IMG/VR virus record: IMGVR_UViG_3300011254_000334
Coordinates: 1-25,930 of that record
Length of the DNA stretch: 25,930 nucleotides
Source of the DNA: a virus
Direction: 5' to 3' (one strand)
Shown here: positions 6,328 to 25,590 of the stretch, piece by piece
How positions within the stretch are numbered: position 1 is the stretch's first letter
Layout: each line of letters opens with the position of its first letter
Translations under genes and position numbers: made by a program
The notes under the pieces: model-generated
Seen by the model: the letters and a program-made list of their open reading frames with translations, nothing else
What the model was told of the DNA's origin: nothing
Database searches by the model: none

Positions 6328-6335
6328 CAAAAATA
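6328..6335 (-). promoter_or_regulatory. Candidate -7 box upstream of the tail-completion operon
   Basis: On the minus strand this reads TATTTTTG, a full match to the Bacteroidetes -7 consensus TAnnTTTG, 42 bases before the ATG at 6286. The -33 region is weak: only TTTA, 20 bases upstream. It lies just beyond the bidirectional terminator and the opposing small gene, where a fresh promoter for the tail genes would be needed. It also shares the wider GCCTTATnTTT motif seen ahead of other genes. Confidence 0.35.
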
Positions 6336-6356: not shown

Positions 6357-6417
6357 AAAAAAACTTTACTTTTTTAGGTACAAAATTCTTTGGTTTGTTA
6401 AATAAGTTTTATATTAG
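6357..6417 (+). promoter_or_regulatory. Strong early-type promoter block (copy A)
   Basis: The block begins with seven A residues and CTTTACTTTTTTAGG, continues through TACAAAATT to 6387, and ends in the -7-like box TATATTAG at 6410-6417. The first 31 bases differ at a single position from the block at 16764-16794 on the other strand, and the distance from GGTACAAAATT to the -7 box is identical in the two. A TTTG at 6389-6392 could act as the -33 box. It drives the plus-strand gene that starts 29 bases downstream. Confidence 0.65.
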
Positions 6418-6446
6418 AGTATCGTTAACAATTAAAACAAAACAAA

Positions 6447-6668
6447 ATGAAACATACAATACAACTTCAATCAGTAGGATTAGTAAACGGAACACCAGCA
6501 GGAGAAATAAAAGTAGGAACTACTTTATTATGGAACTTTGGAGGTACAAGCGTGGTAAAATCAATAATTAAAGAAACAAATAAAAGTATTTGGTTTATAA
6601 CTCAAACTAAAGATGGAAATACTTACAATAGAAGATTTTTAAAAACAAGAGTAATAGGAACAAAATAA
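6447..6668 (+). CDS. Small plus-strand moron-like protein of unknown function
   Basis: This 73-residue basic protein (start MKHTIQLQSVGLVNGTPAGE) is the only convincing plus-strand gene in the window. It looks like a single small beta domain: short strands, a Gly-rich turn (FGGTS) and a basic C-terminus (YNRRFLKTRVIGTK). No signal peptide, membrane helix or known motif is visible. It has its own promoter block 29 bases upstream, an A-rich leader (AAAACAAAACAAA) right before the ATG, and a terminator hairpin 20 bases after its stop. It thus forms an independent cassette inserted, in opposite orientation, between tail genes. Such morons commonly serve host takeover, exclusion or anti-defence, but nothing in the sequence shows which. 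Confidence 0.75.
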   Translation: MKHTIQLQSVGLVNGTPAGEIKVGTTLLWNFGGTSVVKSIIKETNKSIWFITQTKDGNTYNRRFLKTRVIGTK

Positions 6669-6687
6669 TTTTTAAACTAAAAACATT

Positions 6688-6717
6688 AAAAGCCTTGCAT
6701 TAAGTTGTAAGGCTTTT
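6688..6717. terminator. Bidirectional intrinsic terminator
   Basis: AAAAGCCTT at 6688-6696 pairs with AAGGCTTTT at 6709-6717. The stem can extend by three further pairs to about 12 bp, with a six-base loop. A T-run follows on the plus strand, and TTTTAATGTTTTTAG follows on the minus strand. It ends the plus-strand cassette and can also stop minus-strand transcripts that leave the frameshifted tail gene at 6718. Confidence 0.8.
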
Positions 6718-6990
6718 TTAATTTATAGCACTCTTGTATTCCACAAAACTCATTACCTCATCAAATGGAGTATTGAACACTTGGTCTAATCGGTTTAAGT
6801 CTTTCTTCCATACCTTCCACCAAGCTACGGAGTACGAAAATACGCTTGATTCTGCAACGTTTGCAAATATAGGGTAGAAGCCCAAGCGTTTAATGTACTC
6901 GTTAGTTTTTCCATCTCCACTTTTAGTTGTAAATGTGGCTGCATATTTATTTTGTGACTCCTCGTAGAACTGAGCAAAAAAAAAGCGCAA
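6718..6990 (-). CDS. -1 frame extension of the tail assembly chaperone-like gene
   Basis: This open frame has no sound start of its own: it opens immediately after an in-frame TAG and begins with TTG only two codons before a run of nine T. It overlaps the end of the 238-residue frame by 166 bases, in the -1 register. A -1 slip on the T9 run would join the first 188 residues of that protein to 86 residues here, giving about 274. The extension has a convincing protein composition (GFYPIFANVAESS, YSVAWWKVWKK). The arrangement recalls the lambda G/GT type, where a minor fusion product acts as tail assembly chaperone. The alternative is an indel in the homopolymer, which would also make this the true C-terminus. 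Confidence 0.65.
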   Translation of the reverse strand: MRFFFAQFYEESQNKYAATFTTKSGDGKTNEYIKRLGFYPIFANVAESSVFSYSVAWWKVWKKDLNRLDQVFNTPFDEVMSFVEYKSAIN

Positions 6991-7541
6991 CTATAAAATA
7001 AATCCATTCTGCCGTACTTTTTCAAATACTCAATTCGTTCTTCTATCTCTTGCAAATCTTGGTAGTATTCGCCCTCACGCATATAGATTGCAGCTATTAT
7101 AATTCCTTTGTCTGCATCTTGGTAATCTTCATATATGCTTAATAGGCTCATCGTATCCACAAAGTCACCACAGCTTCTTTCACCAAAGTTGGGTATTTCA
7201 AACTTCTTGCCTTTGATCGTAAACTTGCGTTTTGGTGTTTCGTTTTGTAACCAGGCAAACTGCAACATAAACAAGTTATTTACCTTGTCCATATCCATAT
7301 GCATTAAATCATCCATTTCTAATCCTATGCTTAAAGCTGACATAGTTCCACACATTGACTCCACTGCAAGTTTTTGGCTTTCCTCAAGTTTGCCTTCCTC
7401 AAGCAAATCATTTGCCTTTAAAGCTGTGTTTAAATGCTCTTGTGCCTTACTCCATTGCTCAATGTTTACATCATATCTACCACTTGGTATTTTGACATCT
7501 TTTTTACTCTTTCCGTTTGCTGTTATCGTGAATGTGTTCAT
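6825..7541 (-). CDS. Tail assembly chaperone-like protein (0 frame of a probable frameshift pair)
   Basis: This is a 238-residue, mostly helical, acidic protein. It starts at ATG 7541 with a short beta-like segment (MNTFTITANGKSKKDVKIPS) and continues with amphipathic helices. Residues 181-188 (DLFYSCAFF region) are encoded at the T9 run, where the -1 frame takes over. The last 50 residues lie in the stretch shared with the -1 frame and may be less constrained. It lies two genes after the large terminase rather than directly before the tape measure, which is unusual for a chaperone. Position in the tail module, helical composition and the frameshift make a chaperone the best guess. Confidence 0.6.
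   Translation of the reverse strand: MNTFTITANGKSKKDVKIPSGRYDVNIEQWSKAQEHLNTALKANDLLEEGKLEESQKLAVESMCGTMSALSIGLEMDDLMHMDMDKVNNLFMLQFAWLQNETPKRKFTIKGKKFEIPNFGERSCGDFVDTMSLLSIYEDYQDADKGIIIAAIYMREGEYYQDLQEIEERIEYLKKYGRMDLFYSCAFFLLSSTRSHKINMQPHLQLKVEMEKLTSTLNAWASTLYLQTLQNQAYFRTP
6976..6984 (-). other. Putative -1 ribosomal frameshift site (T9 run)
   Basis: On the minus strand the 0 frame reads GCT TTT TTT TTG. Codons of the form T TTT TTT allow both tRNAs to re-pair after a -1 slip, leading into GCT CAG TTC in the extension frame. The extension frame has a TAG stop two codons upstream of the run, so the switch must happen here. Confidence 0.6.
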
Positions 7542-7647
7542 CTTCTAATTTAGCTATAAGTTTATATAATTTATCCTCATCCTTTTTACTTGATGATAGG
7601 TTTATCTTGTCTATTAAATTTAGTATTTGTATTTCAACATCACTCAT
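7504..7647 (-). CDS. Small charged protein coupled to the terminase gene
   Basis: This is a short frame of 47 residues, MSDVEIQILNLIDKI followed by a Lys/Asp/Glu-rich helix. Its ATG overlaps the TGA of the large terminase gene as ATGA, the coupling used elsewhere in this genome. It fills the otherwise empty stretch between the terminase and the chaperone-like gene, though it overlaps the latter by 38 bases. No family is recognised. The helical, charged composition is that of a small phage protein; the overlap leaves some doubt that it is expressed. Confidence 0.5.
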   Translation of the reverse strand: MSDVEIQILNLIDKINLSSSKKDEDKLYKLIAKLEDEHIHDNSKRKE

Positions 7648-8843
7648 AAAAATACTTGATTTTTCTTTTTACCGAATTGATGCCATATAAAATAACCACC
7701 TGCATCTGTTGCGTGGTCTAATCCAAGCGTTTTGTCTGGCTCTCCGTTTCTGTATGGCTGTTGCTCTAAACAATCTGTGTATGTTGGGCATTTAAAGGTG
7801 TTAATTAGATAGCTTTTATCTTGCAGTTTTTTGTTCATCGTGTTTACTCTATCCTTTACGTTTGGATTCACCTTTAATGCTCTTACATTTATACCTGCTT
7901 TCTTAATCGTATCTATGTCCGTTATACTTGCGCTTGTCTTTACTGCCTTACCACTTGCATCCGGATAAGCAAACAGCCGATGGTTAGGATACCTACCTTT
8001 TAATATTTGGCATATATCTTCCGTTTTATACGCATTAACCACTTCATCTACTGCAATAGGATTGCCCTCATCTATAACGTGAACAATCGCAGCCATAGCA
8101 CCCACGTTAAAATCCAAACCAATGTGTAAAATATCTCCATCTTGTACCTCTCTATCGGAATGATTGCCATTTCTATCAAAATGATTGTAAACTGCACCAC
8201 TCGTTAAGTTGACAAATTCACCCTCTAAATATGCTCTCAATAATTCTGGTGTGTACGTTTCTTCCAGGCTCTCAATGTAACTATCTGAAATAAATGGATT
8301 GTTTCTTGTAGATGCCCTTATCAACAGCTTACTATCTGTGTCACGCTTAACAAAGAAATCATACAAAAACCTAAAGCCTTCTGGTGTGCTTACAAAATCC
8401 GTTGCGTTATTGTTGCCTTCCGACTTAACAGAGTTCCTTGCCAATATCTTAACCATCACATCTTCCATCTTGCGTTTTGGCAATACATCTGCCTCATCAA
8501 TTAAACTGTAACCTACTTCATAGCCTACGATCAAATCTGGATTGTCCATAGAACGCATAATAATCCTTCCATATGGTGTGATTATATCTTTATCCGACTT
8601 GTTAAGCGTAAAAGGTATGTTAGCTTGTGTGAGTGCTTCTGTAAACTTTGGGAATGCAATATCTTTAATCAATGGATATGTAGGTAAATAATAAGCTACA
8701 TCTACGCTTGGGTATTGTAGCTTTTTAGATATTGTTTTCCAAATGCCTATGTGACTTTTACCACTACGGAATCCACCAACTAAACCAGTGTGTCGGTGTT
8801 GGCTTTCTAAAAACTCGCTTTGATGCTCAAGTAGGTTTACCAT
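7644..8843 (-). CDS. terL: Terminase large subunit (packaging ATPase and nuclease)
   Basis: The 399-residue protein has both terminase activities in the usual order. The ATPase has Walker A GGFRSGKS at residues 23-30 and Walker B YSLIDEAD at 112-119, ending in the catalytic acidic pair D116/E117. The C-terminal RNase H-like nuclease shows HIGLDFNVG with D244, a second acidic region near D294, and DHATD with D376 and D380. It translocates phage DNA into the prohead through the portal and cuts it. Length is normal for the short terminases of Bacteroidetes phages. It overlaps the small subunit gene by 17 bases. The portal and capsid genes are not next to it; they lie some 12 kb away on the same strand, beyond the replication module. 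Confidence 0.97.
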   Translation of the reverse strand: MVNLLEHQSEFLESQHRHTGLVGGFRSGKSHIGIWKTISKKLQYPSVDVAYYLPTYPLIKDIAFPKFTEALTQANIPFTLNKSDKDIITPYGRIIMRSMDNPDLIVGYEVGYSLIDEADVLPKRKMEDVMVKILARNSVKSEGNNNATDFVSTPEGFRFLYDFFVKRDTDSKLLIRASTRNNPFISDSYIESLEETYTPELLRAYLEGEFVNLTSGAVYNHFDRNGNHSDREVQDGDILHIGLDFNVGAMAAIVHVIDEGNPIAVDEVVNAYKTEDICQILKGRYPNHRLFAYPDASGKAVKTSASITDIDTIKKAGINVRALKVNPNVKDRVNTMNKKLQDKSYLINTFKCPTYTDCLEQQPYRNGEPDKTLGLDHATDAGGYFIWHQFGKKKNQVFL

Positions 8844-9832: not shown

Positions 9833-10540
9833 TTATTCTTTACTTTGCTTAAATACAGCATATTTATTTTCATACAATCCAAGCAAAATGTTTACTTGAT
9901 TGCGTAGTCTAATCCTATTGCTAATATCTTGCATTTGCCCATTTATTTCGCTTTTAAGCCACTTTTTCACTTCAGATAGCTTTGTGTTTAACTCCAAATA
10001 AAACTGCTTTGTATGCTTGTCGCTTGGTGTTTGCTTTAATCCTTCCATAAATTCCAGGTAACTATCTCCGTAGATTCGTTTTATGCCTTGTATGTAGTTC
10101 ATAGCATCACCACTTTTAAAATGATTGCTCTCAAATGACTGGATATGTATGTTGTGTAGGTTAAATCTTATTTGACTGCTTCCACCTGCGTGATAAAAAT
10201 GTCCTGCATTCATCTTGCCAAAGTTGCCAGTTGCTATGCAAGGCTGACCATTGTCAATGATCCTTACTAACTCATTTATCTTTGGCTGAATCATCGTGCT
10301 TTTAACCTTGCTTAAACTCATTAAGTCTATCTTCTTCTTTTGGTCTTGCAGTCTTTCCTTGTGCTTTGTTTCTTTCCTCGCTTTTATCGTGTGTCGGTTT
10401 AAGGTTTCTTTGCCCTCATCCGTTCCATAAAGCCATTTTGGAAAGCATTTATGCTCAAAACATAAGCCATACTTTCTTCTTTCTACCAGGTTACCACATC
10501 CGTATCCTTTTGCCTTATTTATGCCTTTGCACTTTTTCAT
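9833..10540 (-). CDS. ninG: NinG/Rap-like recombination endonuclease
   Basis: This is a 235-residue protein. An N-terminal zinc-binding cluster (C4, C15, C27, H30, C32) is followed by a long basic coiled segment (residues 45-80). The core then holds NAGHFYHAGG (111-120), IRFNLHNIHIQ (124-134) and SNHFKSGD (138-145), the AGH/RFN-NIH/NHKSG pattern of NinG, the lambda Rap Holliday-junction and D-loop endonuclease. One change is notable: the CNQH of NinG reads ESNH and the partner Cys pair is incomplete, so the central zinc site may be lost. It overlaps the DnaA-like gene by four bases and likely resolves recombination intermediates made by the phage annealing protein. Confidence 0.85.
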   Translation of the reverse strand: MKKCKGINKAKGYGCGNLVERRKYGLCFEHKCFPKWLYGTDEGKETLNRHTIKARKETKHKERLQDQKKKIDLMSLSKVKSTMIQPKINELVRIIDNGQPCIATGNFGKMNAGHFYHAGGSSQIRFNLHNIHIQSFESNHFKSGDAMNYIQGIKRIYGDSYLEFMEGLKQTPSDKHTKQFYLELNTKLSEVKKWLKSEINGQMQDISNRIRLRNQVNILLGLYENKYAVFKQSKE

Positions 10541-12363: not shown

Positions 12364-12398
12364 CAAAGATAAGGTTTTATTTAAAAGTATTCTTTAAA
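12364..12398 (-). promoter_or_regulatory. Candidate promoter of the leader RNA and replication genes
   Basis: TATCTTTG on the minus strand (12371-12364) is a full match to the -7 consensus. The -33 region holds TTTA (12398-12395) with a 23-base spacer, one base off TTTG. Transcription would start near 12358, just before the structured leader. Confidence 0.5.
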
Positions 12399-13365: not shown

Positions 13366-13704
13366 TTATTTTTTCATTATTACATTAATAGGTGCTAATA
13401 TGTTTATCAAATCATTAAGGTATTTTTTACCAACATTGCGCTTACTTAAAAATTCCGACATTGATATTTCACTTAATTCAGATAACTTTGTGTCCATATT
13501 AAATCCAAAGCCACCATATTTAGTATCTGCACACAAAATATTCCAAAGCCTAACAGTCATTTTAGGACATTCATTTATAGTTACGTTTTCATCATATAAT
13601 GGCTCTAAATTAAGTATGTACTCATACTCCTTTAGTACTTGTTTTTTGTAAAGTTCAAGTGTTCTTTTTGCTGATTCAACAGCTTTTTTAGTTATTGTTC
13701 CCAT
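13366..13704 (-). CDS. RNA polymerase alpha C-terminal-domain-like protein
   Basis: The 112-residue protein has an N-terminal helix (residues 5-32) and a C-terminal part resembling the alpha-CTD. VRLWNIL (51-57) lines up with VRSANCL of E. coli alpha, keeping the residues equivalent to the UP-element contacts R265 (R52) and N268 (N55). LSELSEISMSEFLSKRNVGK (74-93), then KYL, lines up with the helix-hairpin-helix ending NLGKKSL, keeping G296, K297 and K298 (G92, K93, K94), with Ser299 replaced by Tyr. Other HhH proteins can look similar, but keeping both halves is striking. It has no polymerase assembly domain. It could bind A/T-rich upstream promoter DNA in place of, or together with, the host subunit. 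An A-rich leader precedes its start. Confidence 0.6.
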   Translation of the reverse strand: MGTITKKAVESAKRTLELYKKQVLKEYEYILNLEPLYDENVTINECPKMTVRLWNILCADTKYGGFGFNMDTKLSELSEISMSEFLSKRNVGKKYLNDLINILAPINVIMKK

Positions 13705-15513: not shown

Positions 15514-15717
15514 TTACGAAATTTTAAGTTCTAATCCAACTAATTCTGCATACTGCATCATCTTAGTTGTTGGCATATCAAACTTGTTCTGTTCCCAATT
15601 TAACACACTCTGTGGAGTGCTTTCCAGGTGTTCTGCTATGTCCTTTTGAATAAGTCCTTTTTCTTTGCGCTTGGCTTTTAAGATCCCAAGTAAATCTGTG
15701 TAGGTTAATGTTTTCAT
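15514..15717 (-). CDS. XRE-family helix-turn-helix regulator
   Basis: The 67-residue protein is nearly all a Cro/CI-type HTH domain. Helices run TDLLGILKAKRKEKG, then LIQKDIAEHLESTPQSVLNW (22-41), and EQNKFDMPTTKMMQYAELVG; the QKDIAEHL/TPQSVLNWE pattern is the scanning helix pair. It binds DNA, probably as a dimer. Unlike a classic lysogeny switch it has no divergent partner gene and lies in the middle of the early operon, so it could act on early promoters or be a simple Cro-like switch. Confidence 0.85.
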   Translation of the reverse strand: MKTLTYTDLLGILKAKRKEKGLIQKDIAEHLESTPQSVLNWEQNKFDMPTTKMMQYAELVGLELKIS

Positions 15718-15718
15718 T

Positions 15719-15871
15719 TTAGATTGTTTTAAAAAATGTTAAGTAAAATAATATGATTGCGATGATTGTATGCACAAATAAAGCCTTGCTAATTGTGCCT
15801 TTTTCAATGTGTTGCATTCCCATAATAAACAAGGAAATACAAGCCAGTAATAAAAAAAATAAACTCTGCAT
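15719..15871 (-). CDS. Tiny two-helix membrane protein
   Basis: A 50-residue frame with two hydrophobic segments: SLFFLLLACISLFIMG (3-18) and FVHTIIAIILFYLTFF (32-47), joined by a short polar loop QHIEKGTISK. The ATG overlaps the stop of the upstream gene as TAATG and its stop abuts the XRE gene start, so it is part of the operon. The size and hairpin topology fit a small inner-membrane effector, for example of exclusion or host lysis timing, but nothing identifies it. Confidence 0.6.
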   Translation of the reverse strand: MQSLFFLLLACISLFIMGMQHIEKGTISKALFVHTIIAIILFYLTFFKTI

Positions 15872-16215
15872 TATAATAGGTTTTTTTCGGTTAAATAATC
15901 AAGTATGTCTCTATGCTCAAATTGGTAATCACCAAGATATGTGTGTAGTTCTTCCTGGTCATAACCATCGTGAAAATTAAAAGTATCGTGCATTTCAATC
16001 ACGGTAATGTCACCGTAATATTTGCAAACTTCCAAGTCTAAGAATTTACATAAGTCATACTTGCAAATGCTAATATGATCTTCAGCAAGTAAACTATCTT
16101 CGTAGTAGATGTTACCTTCTACAGTTTCGCCAGATTGATGATGTAGGTCAAATAGTTTTTTCCGTTGTGTTAGCTTGTTAATAAAGCTGTTAAATGTGTT
16201 TGTCCAGTTCTCCAT
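15871..16215 (-). CDS. Acidic hypothetical protein, early module
   Basis: This encodes 114 residues, rich in Asp, Glu, His and Tyr (the stretch MHDTFNFHDGYDQEELHTYL is typical), with no membrane segment and no recognised motif. ATG 16215 (MENWTNTF) is favoured because an A-rich leader (CACAAAAACAAAAC) sits nine bases upstream; an extension upstream would run through it. Its strong negative charge could suit a DNA-mimic or an inhibitor, but that is speculation. Confidence 0.55.
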   Translation of the reverse strand: MENWTNTFNSFINKLTQRKKLFDLHHQSGETVEGNIYYEDSLLAEDHISICKYDLCKFLDLEVCKYYGDITVIEMHDTFNFHDGYDQEELHTYLGDYQFEHRDILDYLTEKNLL

Positions 16216-16279: not shown

Positions 16280-16693
16280 TTATCCTATATCGTGGTAATC
16301 TTTAATGTGTTTGCAAATAGCCAAATGGGCAGTTGCTTTTCCATCACCTTTCCAAGTGCTAAATATTTTTCCATTAACATTAAAAGAATCTTTTAATATA
16401 AAATAAAAATCCTCATTTAAAAAAATAATTTTTTTGCCATTTTTTAATGTTTCAACTTCTACAGTTAAACCATCTAAAGAAATTTGAATATTTGTTTTTG
16501 AGTAATAATTGTTTTTTGTTAATTGATTTGCTATAAAACTTTCACCAGTTTGAAAATCTTGTCCATTCTTAAAATCAAAGAGTTCAATGCTTTCTGATGG
16601 TGTTATTGTTAAAATATTGCCATTTAATTTTTGTATTGAAAAGAAAACTTTTTTACCTTGTAATTCTGTTGTATTTCGTTCTATTAATTTCAT
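16280..16693 (-). CDS. First gene of the early operon, function unknown
   Basis: This encodes 137 residues beginning MKLIERNTTELQGKKVFF. The pattern is beta-rich with short strands (VFFSIQKLNGNILTIT, TNIQISLDGLTVEVETL) and ends in a helix AHLAICKHIKDYHD. ATG 16693 is chosen over an earlier frame start because the promoter and an A-rich leader (AAACAAAACAA) lie just upstream of it. As the gene nearest the strongest early promoter it should be made first after infection, which suits host takeover or anti-defence roles. No domain is recognised. Confidence 0.6.
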   Translation of the reverse strand: MKLIERNTTELQGKKVFFSIQKLNGNILTITPSESIELFDFKNGQDFQTGESFIANQLTKNNYYSKTNIQISLDGLTVEVETLKNGKKIIFLNEDFYFILKDSFNVNGKIFSTWKGDGKATAHLAICKHIKDYHDIG

Positions 16694-16733
16694 AATTGTT
16701 TTGTTTTTTTTGTTTTTAAATAATTTGATAGTA

Positions 16734-16794
16734 CGAATATAAAACGCTTTTCCCAAATAAAAAAATTTTGTACCTTAAAAAGTAAAGTTTTTTT
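16734..16794 (-). promoter_or_regulatory. Early operon promoter block (copy B)
   Basis: On the minus strand seven A residues and CTTTACTTTTTAAGG lead into TACAAAATT, with TATATTCG as the -7 box at 16741-16734, 41 bases before the ATG. The first 31 bases differ from the plus-strand copy at 6357-6387 by one base, and the spacing to the -7 box is the same. The region between the two parts is only partly alike, as expected of a promoter spacer. Confidence 0.7.
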
Positions 16795-16825: not shown

Positions 16826-16910
16826 AAAAATAAAATGGGCATAATCCGAAGAAAATGCCCACAAAACAAAACAATCTATTATGAAAACGTGGCATTGCAC
16901 CACTATAGAC
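16826..16910 (-). ncRNA. Candidate small RNA between late and early operons
   Basis: A promoter match (16915-16948) and an intrinsic terminator (16836-16861) bound about 80 bases with no gene. The predicted RNA can fold: UCUAU/AUAGA (16909-16905 with 16879-16875) closes an inner hairpin GUGG/CCAC (16903-16900 with 16892-16889), and the terminator hairpin UGGGCAU/AUGCCCA with a 12-base loop and UUUUAUUUUUA tail follows. Short promoter-to-terminator units with internal structure are typical of independent sRNAs. The same bases could instead just be the terminated end of the late operon. Confidence 0.45.
16830..16861 (-). terminator. Intrinsic terminator at the end of the head/lysis operon
   Basis: TGGGCAT (16836-16842) and ATGCCCA (16855-16861) form a 7-bp stem with a 12-base loop, followed on the minus strand by TTTTATTTTTA. 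It lies 67 bases after the last gene of the late operon and before the early promoter. Confidence 0.75.
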
Positions 16911-25549: not shown

Positions 25550-25584
25550 CAAAAATACATCGCAAACCTTGCAATATTTACAAA
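25550..25584 (-). promoter_or_regulatory. Promoter match before the protease gene
   Basis: TTTG (25584-25581), a 23-base spacer and TATTTTTG (25557-25550) match both boxes of the Bacteroidetes promoter. The predicted start lies within a few bases of the ATG at 25543. Confidence 0.5.
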
Positions 25585-25590
25585 TAATAT

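Follow-up and report, generated by a model that had tools for sequence, protein, structure and literature searches.

A 31-bp block that occurs twice in the virus record analysed here recurs in related marine virus contigs at five fixed places, designated slots A to E, where it precedes small genes unrelated to each other. That these slots hold interchangeable single genes is well supported by the sequences. We consider it quite probable that the block belongs to an early promoter for the host sigma-A polymerase, equipped with a UP-like tract, and that this promoter drives the swappable slot genes.

The repeated block and its surroundings

The window, i.e., the whole stretch of DNA analysed, is a 25.9-kb virus record (IMG/VR record IMGVR_UViG_3300011254_000334, positions 1–25,930). 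It carries a structural module and genes for TerL (7644–8843), a NinG-like protein, a replication-initiator-like protein and an XRE-type regulator, besides a Rad52-like annealing protein and an exonuclease, both encoded in the slot A operon, which carries the block. The host is probably a flavobacterial member of the Bacteroidota, because the promoter type and the leaders described below fit such a host. TerL was found in none of 299 Flavobacteriaceae genomes.

The two blocks, at 6357–6387 on the plus strand and at 16794–16764 on the minus strand, differ by one mismatch and constitute the longest near-exact repeat within the window; dinucleotide shuffles gave no match in 100 trials. In both copies 22 nt separate GGTACAAAATT from a TATATT(A/C)G box, which reads TATATTAG at 6410–6417 (+) and TATATTCG at 16741–16734 (−). 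The plus copy precedes 6447–6668, the only convincing plus-strand gene, and the minus copy heads 16693–16280, the first gene past an upstream terminator-like hairpin, in an operon that carries recombination genes. The repeat, its equal spacing to the box and its position before both genes had been pointed out in a preliminary description of this DNA, and all of them were confirmed. Promoter positions are numbered here after PMC6847099, with the box at −12 to −5 and the start 4–5 nt later. Transcription is predicted from the sequence to start at about 6422 (+) in slot D and at about 16729 (−) in slot A. The features of the window are as follows.

6357–6376 (+): A/T-rich upstream tract (A7 CTTTACTTTTTTA), UP-element-like by sequence, about −65 to −46
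6377–6387 (+): GGTACAAAATT, about −45 to −35
6410–6417 (+): −7 box TATATTAG, with one deviation, at −6, from the sigma-A consensus TAHHTTTG
6422–6446 (+): slot D leader, A-rich, type 1; GTATCGTTAACAATTAAAACAAAACAAA begins at 6419
6447–6668 (+): slot D cassette gene, 73 aa, predicted all-beta
6688–6717 (+): slot D cassette 3' end, terminator-like hairpin AAAAGCCTTGCATTAAGTTGTAAGGCTTTTTT (−15.9 kcal/mol, z −4.3), common to slots C, D and E of relatives
10537–10540 (−): slot C, empty in the window, where two genes overlap; occupied in L074, L075, L083 and L157
14631–14683 (−): slot B, empty in the window; occupied in L074, L075, L136, L142 and L145
16236–16273 (−): slot A cassette 3' end, DUF805b RNA (Rfam RF02914, 45.1 bits), before the next core gene
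16280–16693 (−): slot A cassette gene, 137 aa, no relative found
16694–16729 (−): slot A leader, A-rich
16734–16741 (−): slot A promoter, −7 box TATATTCG, by sequence
16764–16774 (−): slot A promoter, GGTACAAAATT
16775–16794 (−): slot A promoter, A/T-rich upstream tract
16835–16862 (−): terminator-like hairpin preceding slot A (z −3.6)
25553–25590 (−): slot E, empty in the window; occupied in L135

Copies in related viral contigs and elsewhere

Relatives of the window were gathered via TerL, an upstream protein and the exonuclease. The preliminary description had proposed a search for further copies of the block, and an ungapped search with a position-specific matrix recovered 41 of them on 28 contigs, the window included, with scores of 33–77 bits against a shuffled maximum of 6; these copies are not all independent, as some contigs derive from the same phages. 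An absence of copies from related phages, which the description had named as part of its refutation, was thus not the outcome. We tabulated 24 distinct variants, the alignment of which is gapless from −61 to −5, as expected from an ungapped search. Inspection of the occupied slots in close relatives revealed no gapped version of the block. The distance from block to box is still 22 nt among variants with fully different spacer sequences. Leader length varies freely, the ATG lying 67–111 nt from the block start.

The exact pattern was found in ten viral contigs, nine of which have a −7-like box at the same offset, and a shorter pattern matched 71 viral contigs, with the −7 box correctly placed in this group only. 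A phage DNA collection contained no near match and no near relative of the window, and the promoter region gave weak partial matches only. A scan of about 85,000 genomes of bacteria and archaea found no occurrence in promoter context, and none of its 46 matches is a clear promoter of this kind. One match, in the Aquimarina genome L100, has TATATTAG at the same offset, yet bears no other likeness to the group and was rejected.

Nature of the probable promoter

The sequences indicate that the block is very likely a promoter, and likely one read by the host sigma-A polymerase with UP-like help. In all 24 variants the DNA from −61 to −46 is A/T-only or nearly so, in most cases with a T-run at −52 to −47, in agreement with the A/T tracts that UP elements have between about −59 and −38. 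A UP-like role had been suggested for the A7 and A/T part, and its position at about −65 to −46 would fit that role. All variants also share a stretch close to AAAATT around −40 to −35, as well as TAnnTT at −12. The −7 box is exactly TAnnTTTG in many relatives and has one off-consensus base in both window copies, in which the nearly invariant T at −6 is missing. A TTTG 19 nt before the −7 box, i.e., the Bacteroidota −33 element, occurs in relatives in many of the copies at slots B, C, D and E and is missing from the close slot A copies; the plus copy of the window has a TTTG with 17-nt spacing, and the minus copy has none at that place. With the T at −6 missing from the window copies and the TTTG from the close slot A copies, a different contact could be of importance. 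According to PMC6847099, the sigma-A consensus of F. johnsoniae is TAHHTTTG at −12 to −5 and the −33 element is weak there too. Apart from the base at −6 in the window copies, the −7 box of the block promoters and its position agree with this consensus and with the F. psychrophilum sigma-A motifs (PMC9723704).

The preliminary description suggested that the block is the dedicated recognition element of a phage-specific early regulon. In such a regulon the 31-bp block would bind a phage or host regulator, e.g., the XRE-type helix-turn-helix protein at 15514–15717, which would switch all copies together. This protein, a product of the slot A operon, is conserved at 96–98% in close relatives, a perfect 14-bp palindrome (TACAAAATTTTGTA) spans about −43 to −30 of several copies, and the other operons of the window, core operons among them, have plain boxes without the block (e.g., on the minus strand, TATCTTTG at 12371 and TATTTTTG at 6335), all of which would suit a regulon. 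Nevertheless, neither window copy retains an intact palindrome, nor does any of the close slot A copies. The GGTAC segment is GGTAC, GGTTA, GCTAC, ATGTAC or TACTA depending on the copy and changes from slot to slot even within one phage. Relatives of 55–72% lack it at these slots, where they keep T-rich DNA and TATATTTG-type boxes. Moreover, no sigma factor or RNA polymerase family was detected among the 20 window proteins scanned against Pfam. We regard a phage-specific regulon as unlikely, and the claim of a dedicated element was not supported. A sigma-A promoter with a UP-like region would look like the observed pattern of variants, which suits the site of one dedicated protein less. The conservation of the GGTACAAAATT stretch in close relatives exceeds the need of a plain A/T tract, which counts against a UP-only reading. 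On balance, we take the block to belong to a strong, UP-like promoter for early transcription by the host polymerase, rather than to be a recognition element private to the phage.

Two further observations concern transcription in this phage. The core promoters at 6335 (−), 9826 (−) and 12371 (−) share CCTTATnTTT(G/A) around the −7 box and are perhaps a second promoter class. A small protein encoded at 13366–13704 (−) has a C-terminal part resembling the C-terminal domain of the RNA polymerase alpha subunit (Pfam E 0.03, below the cut-off). We rejected it as a candidate UP-binding factor, as the Pfam match is weak and the protein was not seen in the promoter-bearing contigs L074 and L136.

Turnover of the slot genes

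The first ORFs behind the 40 copies with a readable downstream region form 28 unrelated clusters, distributed over the five fixed slots. These ORFs are small (42–192 aa), mostly one per slot, and almost none of them has a relative in the databases. In close relatives the core proteins on either side are for the most part 94–100% identical, a few being lower. Mean pairwise identity within slots is 0.81–0.87 for the block, 0.64–0.72 for the first 15 nt of the gene and 0.31–0.34 for its remainder, the last being at the level of chance (0.31 in shuffled sequences). Between slots the block has an identity of 0.68, compared with 0.38 in shuffled sequences. In other words, promoter, leader and first codons match among copies, and the gene bodies do not. 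The sharing of the block by two unrelated genes, which had been singled out in the window, is real and not special, as nearly every slot in every relative holds another unrelated gene.

The clearest sign of recent exchange in these sequences is found between L005 and L074: over the 6.6 kb that end at the slot C start codon their identity is 99.94%, and beyond it they have different genes; the L005 contig ends soon after the slot C start and shows the near joint only. The same gene stands behind two promoter-leader types in L009 and L080. The slot C gene of L157 is related to the slot A genes of L153 and L154, so that one family occupies different slots in different phages. The slot D gene of the window has 76–82% relatives in four otherwise unrelated phage contigs (L170–L173), each behind its own TATATTTG box and following a large gene that is terminase-like by eye. 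An xNL start is present in 13 of the 29 distinct cassette proteins, compared with 8 of 341 other ORFs, and the shared first codons would be consistent with a joint made by recombination or with selection for ease of translation.

About 20 cassette proteins, including those of the window, had no Pfam matches, and a search of the same number against PHROGs, again with the window genes included, matched only a few PHROGs, of unknown function. The 73-aa slot D protein is predicted to be all-beta (pLDDT 76), with no meaningful structural match. Some variable genes in relatives are not preceded by the block. In L075, a DNA methyltransferase-like gene (6504–7448; motif ADPPYY, by eye), which is inserted after the NinG-like gene in some relatives, is not behind the shared promoter.

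Leaders and 3' ends

The leaders fall into a few types, which are reused at different slots. We rejected leader GTATCGTTAAC as a host leader, since the number of Flavobacteriaceae genomes in which it occurs, 11 of 299, does not exceed that of the reversed control. Hairpins at the leader 5' ends (L074 213–275, L136 5940–5995 and L080 2770–2835) display matched changes in both arms, GTATGC/GCATAC and GTATGG/CCATAC (GGGAATAACCC, GGCAATAAGCC).

Slots C, D and E close with the hairpin AAAAGCCTTRCATTAAMTTGTRAGGCTTTTTT or a near variant, and slots A and B mostly with the short DUF805b RNA element. The slot B 3' ends of L142 and L145 are other hairpins, and thus the 3' ends vary too. The DUF805b RNA of the window matches the family in both sequence and structure, its 45.1 bits standing against an Rfam gathering score of 35.6. 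Five further copies were found in relatives, and the element is present in L074, L136 and L137. Our literature search on this RNA found no paper. For the gene at 15871–16215, the start called by the ORF tool (16266) falls inside the DUF805b RNA, and the ATG at 16215 is the likelier start.

Proposed mechanism and remaining alternatives

We propose that the block supplies the upstream half of an early promoter of high strength, which would be read by the host primary sigma-A polymerase. Its A/T tracts (about −65 to −46) probably serve as contacts for the alpha subunits of the polymerase in the style of a UP element; next would come the −33 region, a TAnnTTTG-type −7 box at fixed spacing, and an A-rich leader suited to flavobacterial translation. 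The promoter-leader unit, repeated at up to five fixed slots, would drive one interchangeable small accessory gene in each. In slots C, D and E the cassette would be closed by a terminator; in slots A and B, where the DUF805b RNA mostly stands at the end, transcription could then run into the core operon. New genes would enter by recombination, with the joint in the leader or first codons on one side and in the shared 3' element on the other, and the exchange may be carried out by the Rad52-type annealing protein and the exonuclease that the phage itself encodes. Both recombination through such standard ends and a role of the cassettes against the host or its defences are plausible. The sequences show directly the repeat, its fixed spacing, the slots, the turnover of their genes and the 5' breakpoints; the activity of the promoter, its early timing, the UP role, the mechanism of recombination and the action of the genes against the host or its defences are inferred. 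It is attractive to speculate further that the promoter-leader unit and the standard 3' ends together define the slots as a 'socket' system, through which single early genes are exchanged between slots and phages, giving fast turnover of host-takeover or counter-defence genes. We consider this wider idea slightly less likely than not.

Alternatively, the copies might be alike only through recent promoter duplication or recombinational homogenisation, with no special selection on the block. The reuse of leader and spacer types across slots does imply copying, and the slot-specific upstream flanks (identity between slots 0.33) imply that the promoter unit alone was copied. However, slot-specific variants persist, the 22-nt spacing is constant though the spacer changes fully and the leader length is free, and the −7 box position common to all copies points to function. 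We consider this alternative improbable. It is most improbable of all that the block works as a target of site-specific recombination or of integration, gathering cassettes like attI/attC of integrons, as interchangeable single-gene cassettes at fixed slots might suggest, since no such integrase or recombinase was found in the proteins scanned (a set covering part of the structural module), the gene joint lies at the leader or start codon, about 60–110 nt downstream of the block and outside it, and the block retains promoter spacing.

Significance

If a host sigma-A promoter indeed drives swappable slot genes, the system suggests how one phage group trades single genes while leaving their expression intact. 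The small size of the cassette genes, their probable early expression and their exchange between near-identical phages make them good candidates for functions in host takeover or counter-defence. The promoter-leader block can also be used as a DNA probe that pulls fast-changing early genes from marine virus data without protein similarity; here the yield was 28 small genes unrelated to each other, of which almost none has known relatives. In addition, the Rfam DUF805b RNA gains a definite genetic context.

Comparison with known systems

The morons of lambdoid phages are single genes with their own promoter and terminator, inserted between core genes. Slot D resembles them in holding a single opposite-strand gene between core genes, with its own promoter and terminator as judged from the sequence, and the genes likewise differ between close relatives at the same place (28 unrelated ORFs). 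Unlike morons, one promoter-leader unit here serves many unrelated genes in up to five slots, and a structured RNA rather than a terminator usually closes slots A and B. By analogy, the slots would work as several morons served by a common promoter.

The SAS/ESAS of cluster K mycobacteriophages are 13 bp long, lie a few nt from the start codon and were proposed to act in translation, their authors also naming the SAS as a possible recombination target (PMC3203893). Both repeats are short, confined to one phage cluster and placed before the start codons of different gene families (PMC3203893), whereas the repeat described here is probably an upstream promoter element, about 85–110 nt before the start codon. 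The diversity hotspots of P2-like phages and P4 satellites are loci of about 1–5 kb that hold antiviral systems, and they share with the slots a high gene turnover between two conserved genes (PMC9122126). The present slots differ in holding mostly one ORF of 42–192 aa and in that several of them share one promoter.

Flavobacterium sigma-A promoters have the TAnnTTTG −7 box that is exact in many relatives of the window, a weak −33 element and, like the slots, A-rich leaders without Shine-Dalgarno; as far as consulted, the two studies report no conserved far-upstream block of A/T and GGTACAAAATT (PMC6847099, PMC9723704). The DUF805b RNA (RF02914) here forms the 3' boundary of swappable cassettes in two slots. 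Relative to morons, SAS and hotspots, the new point is one shared promoter over several slots.
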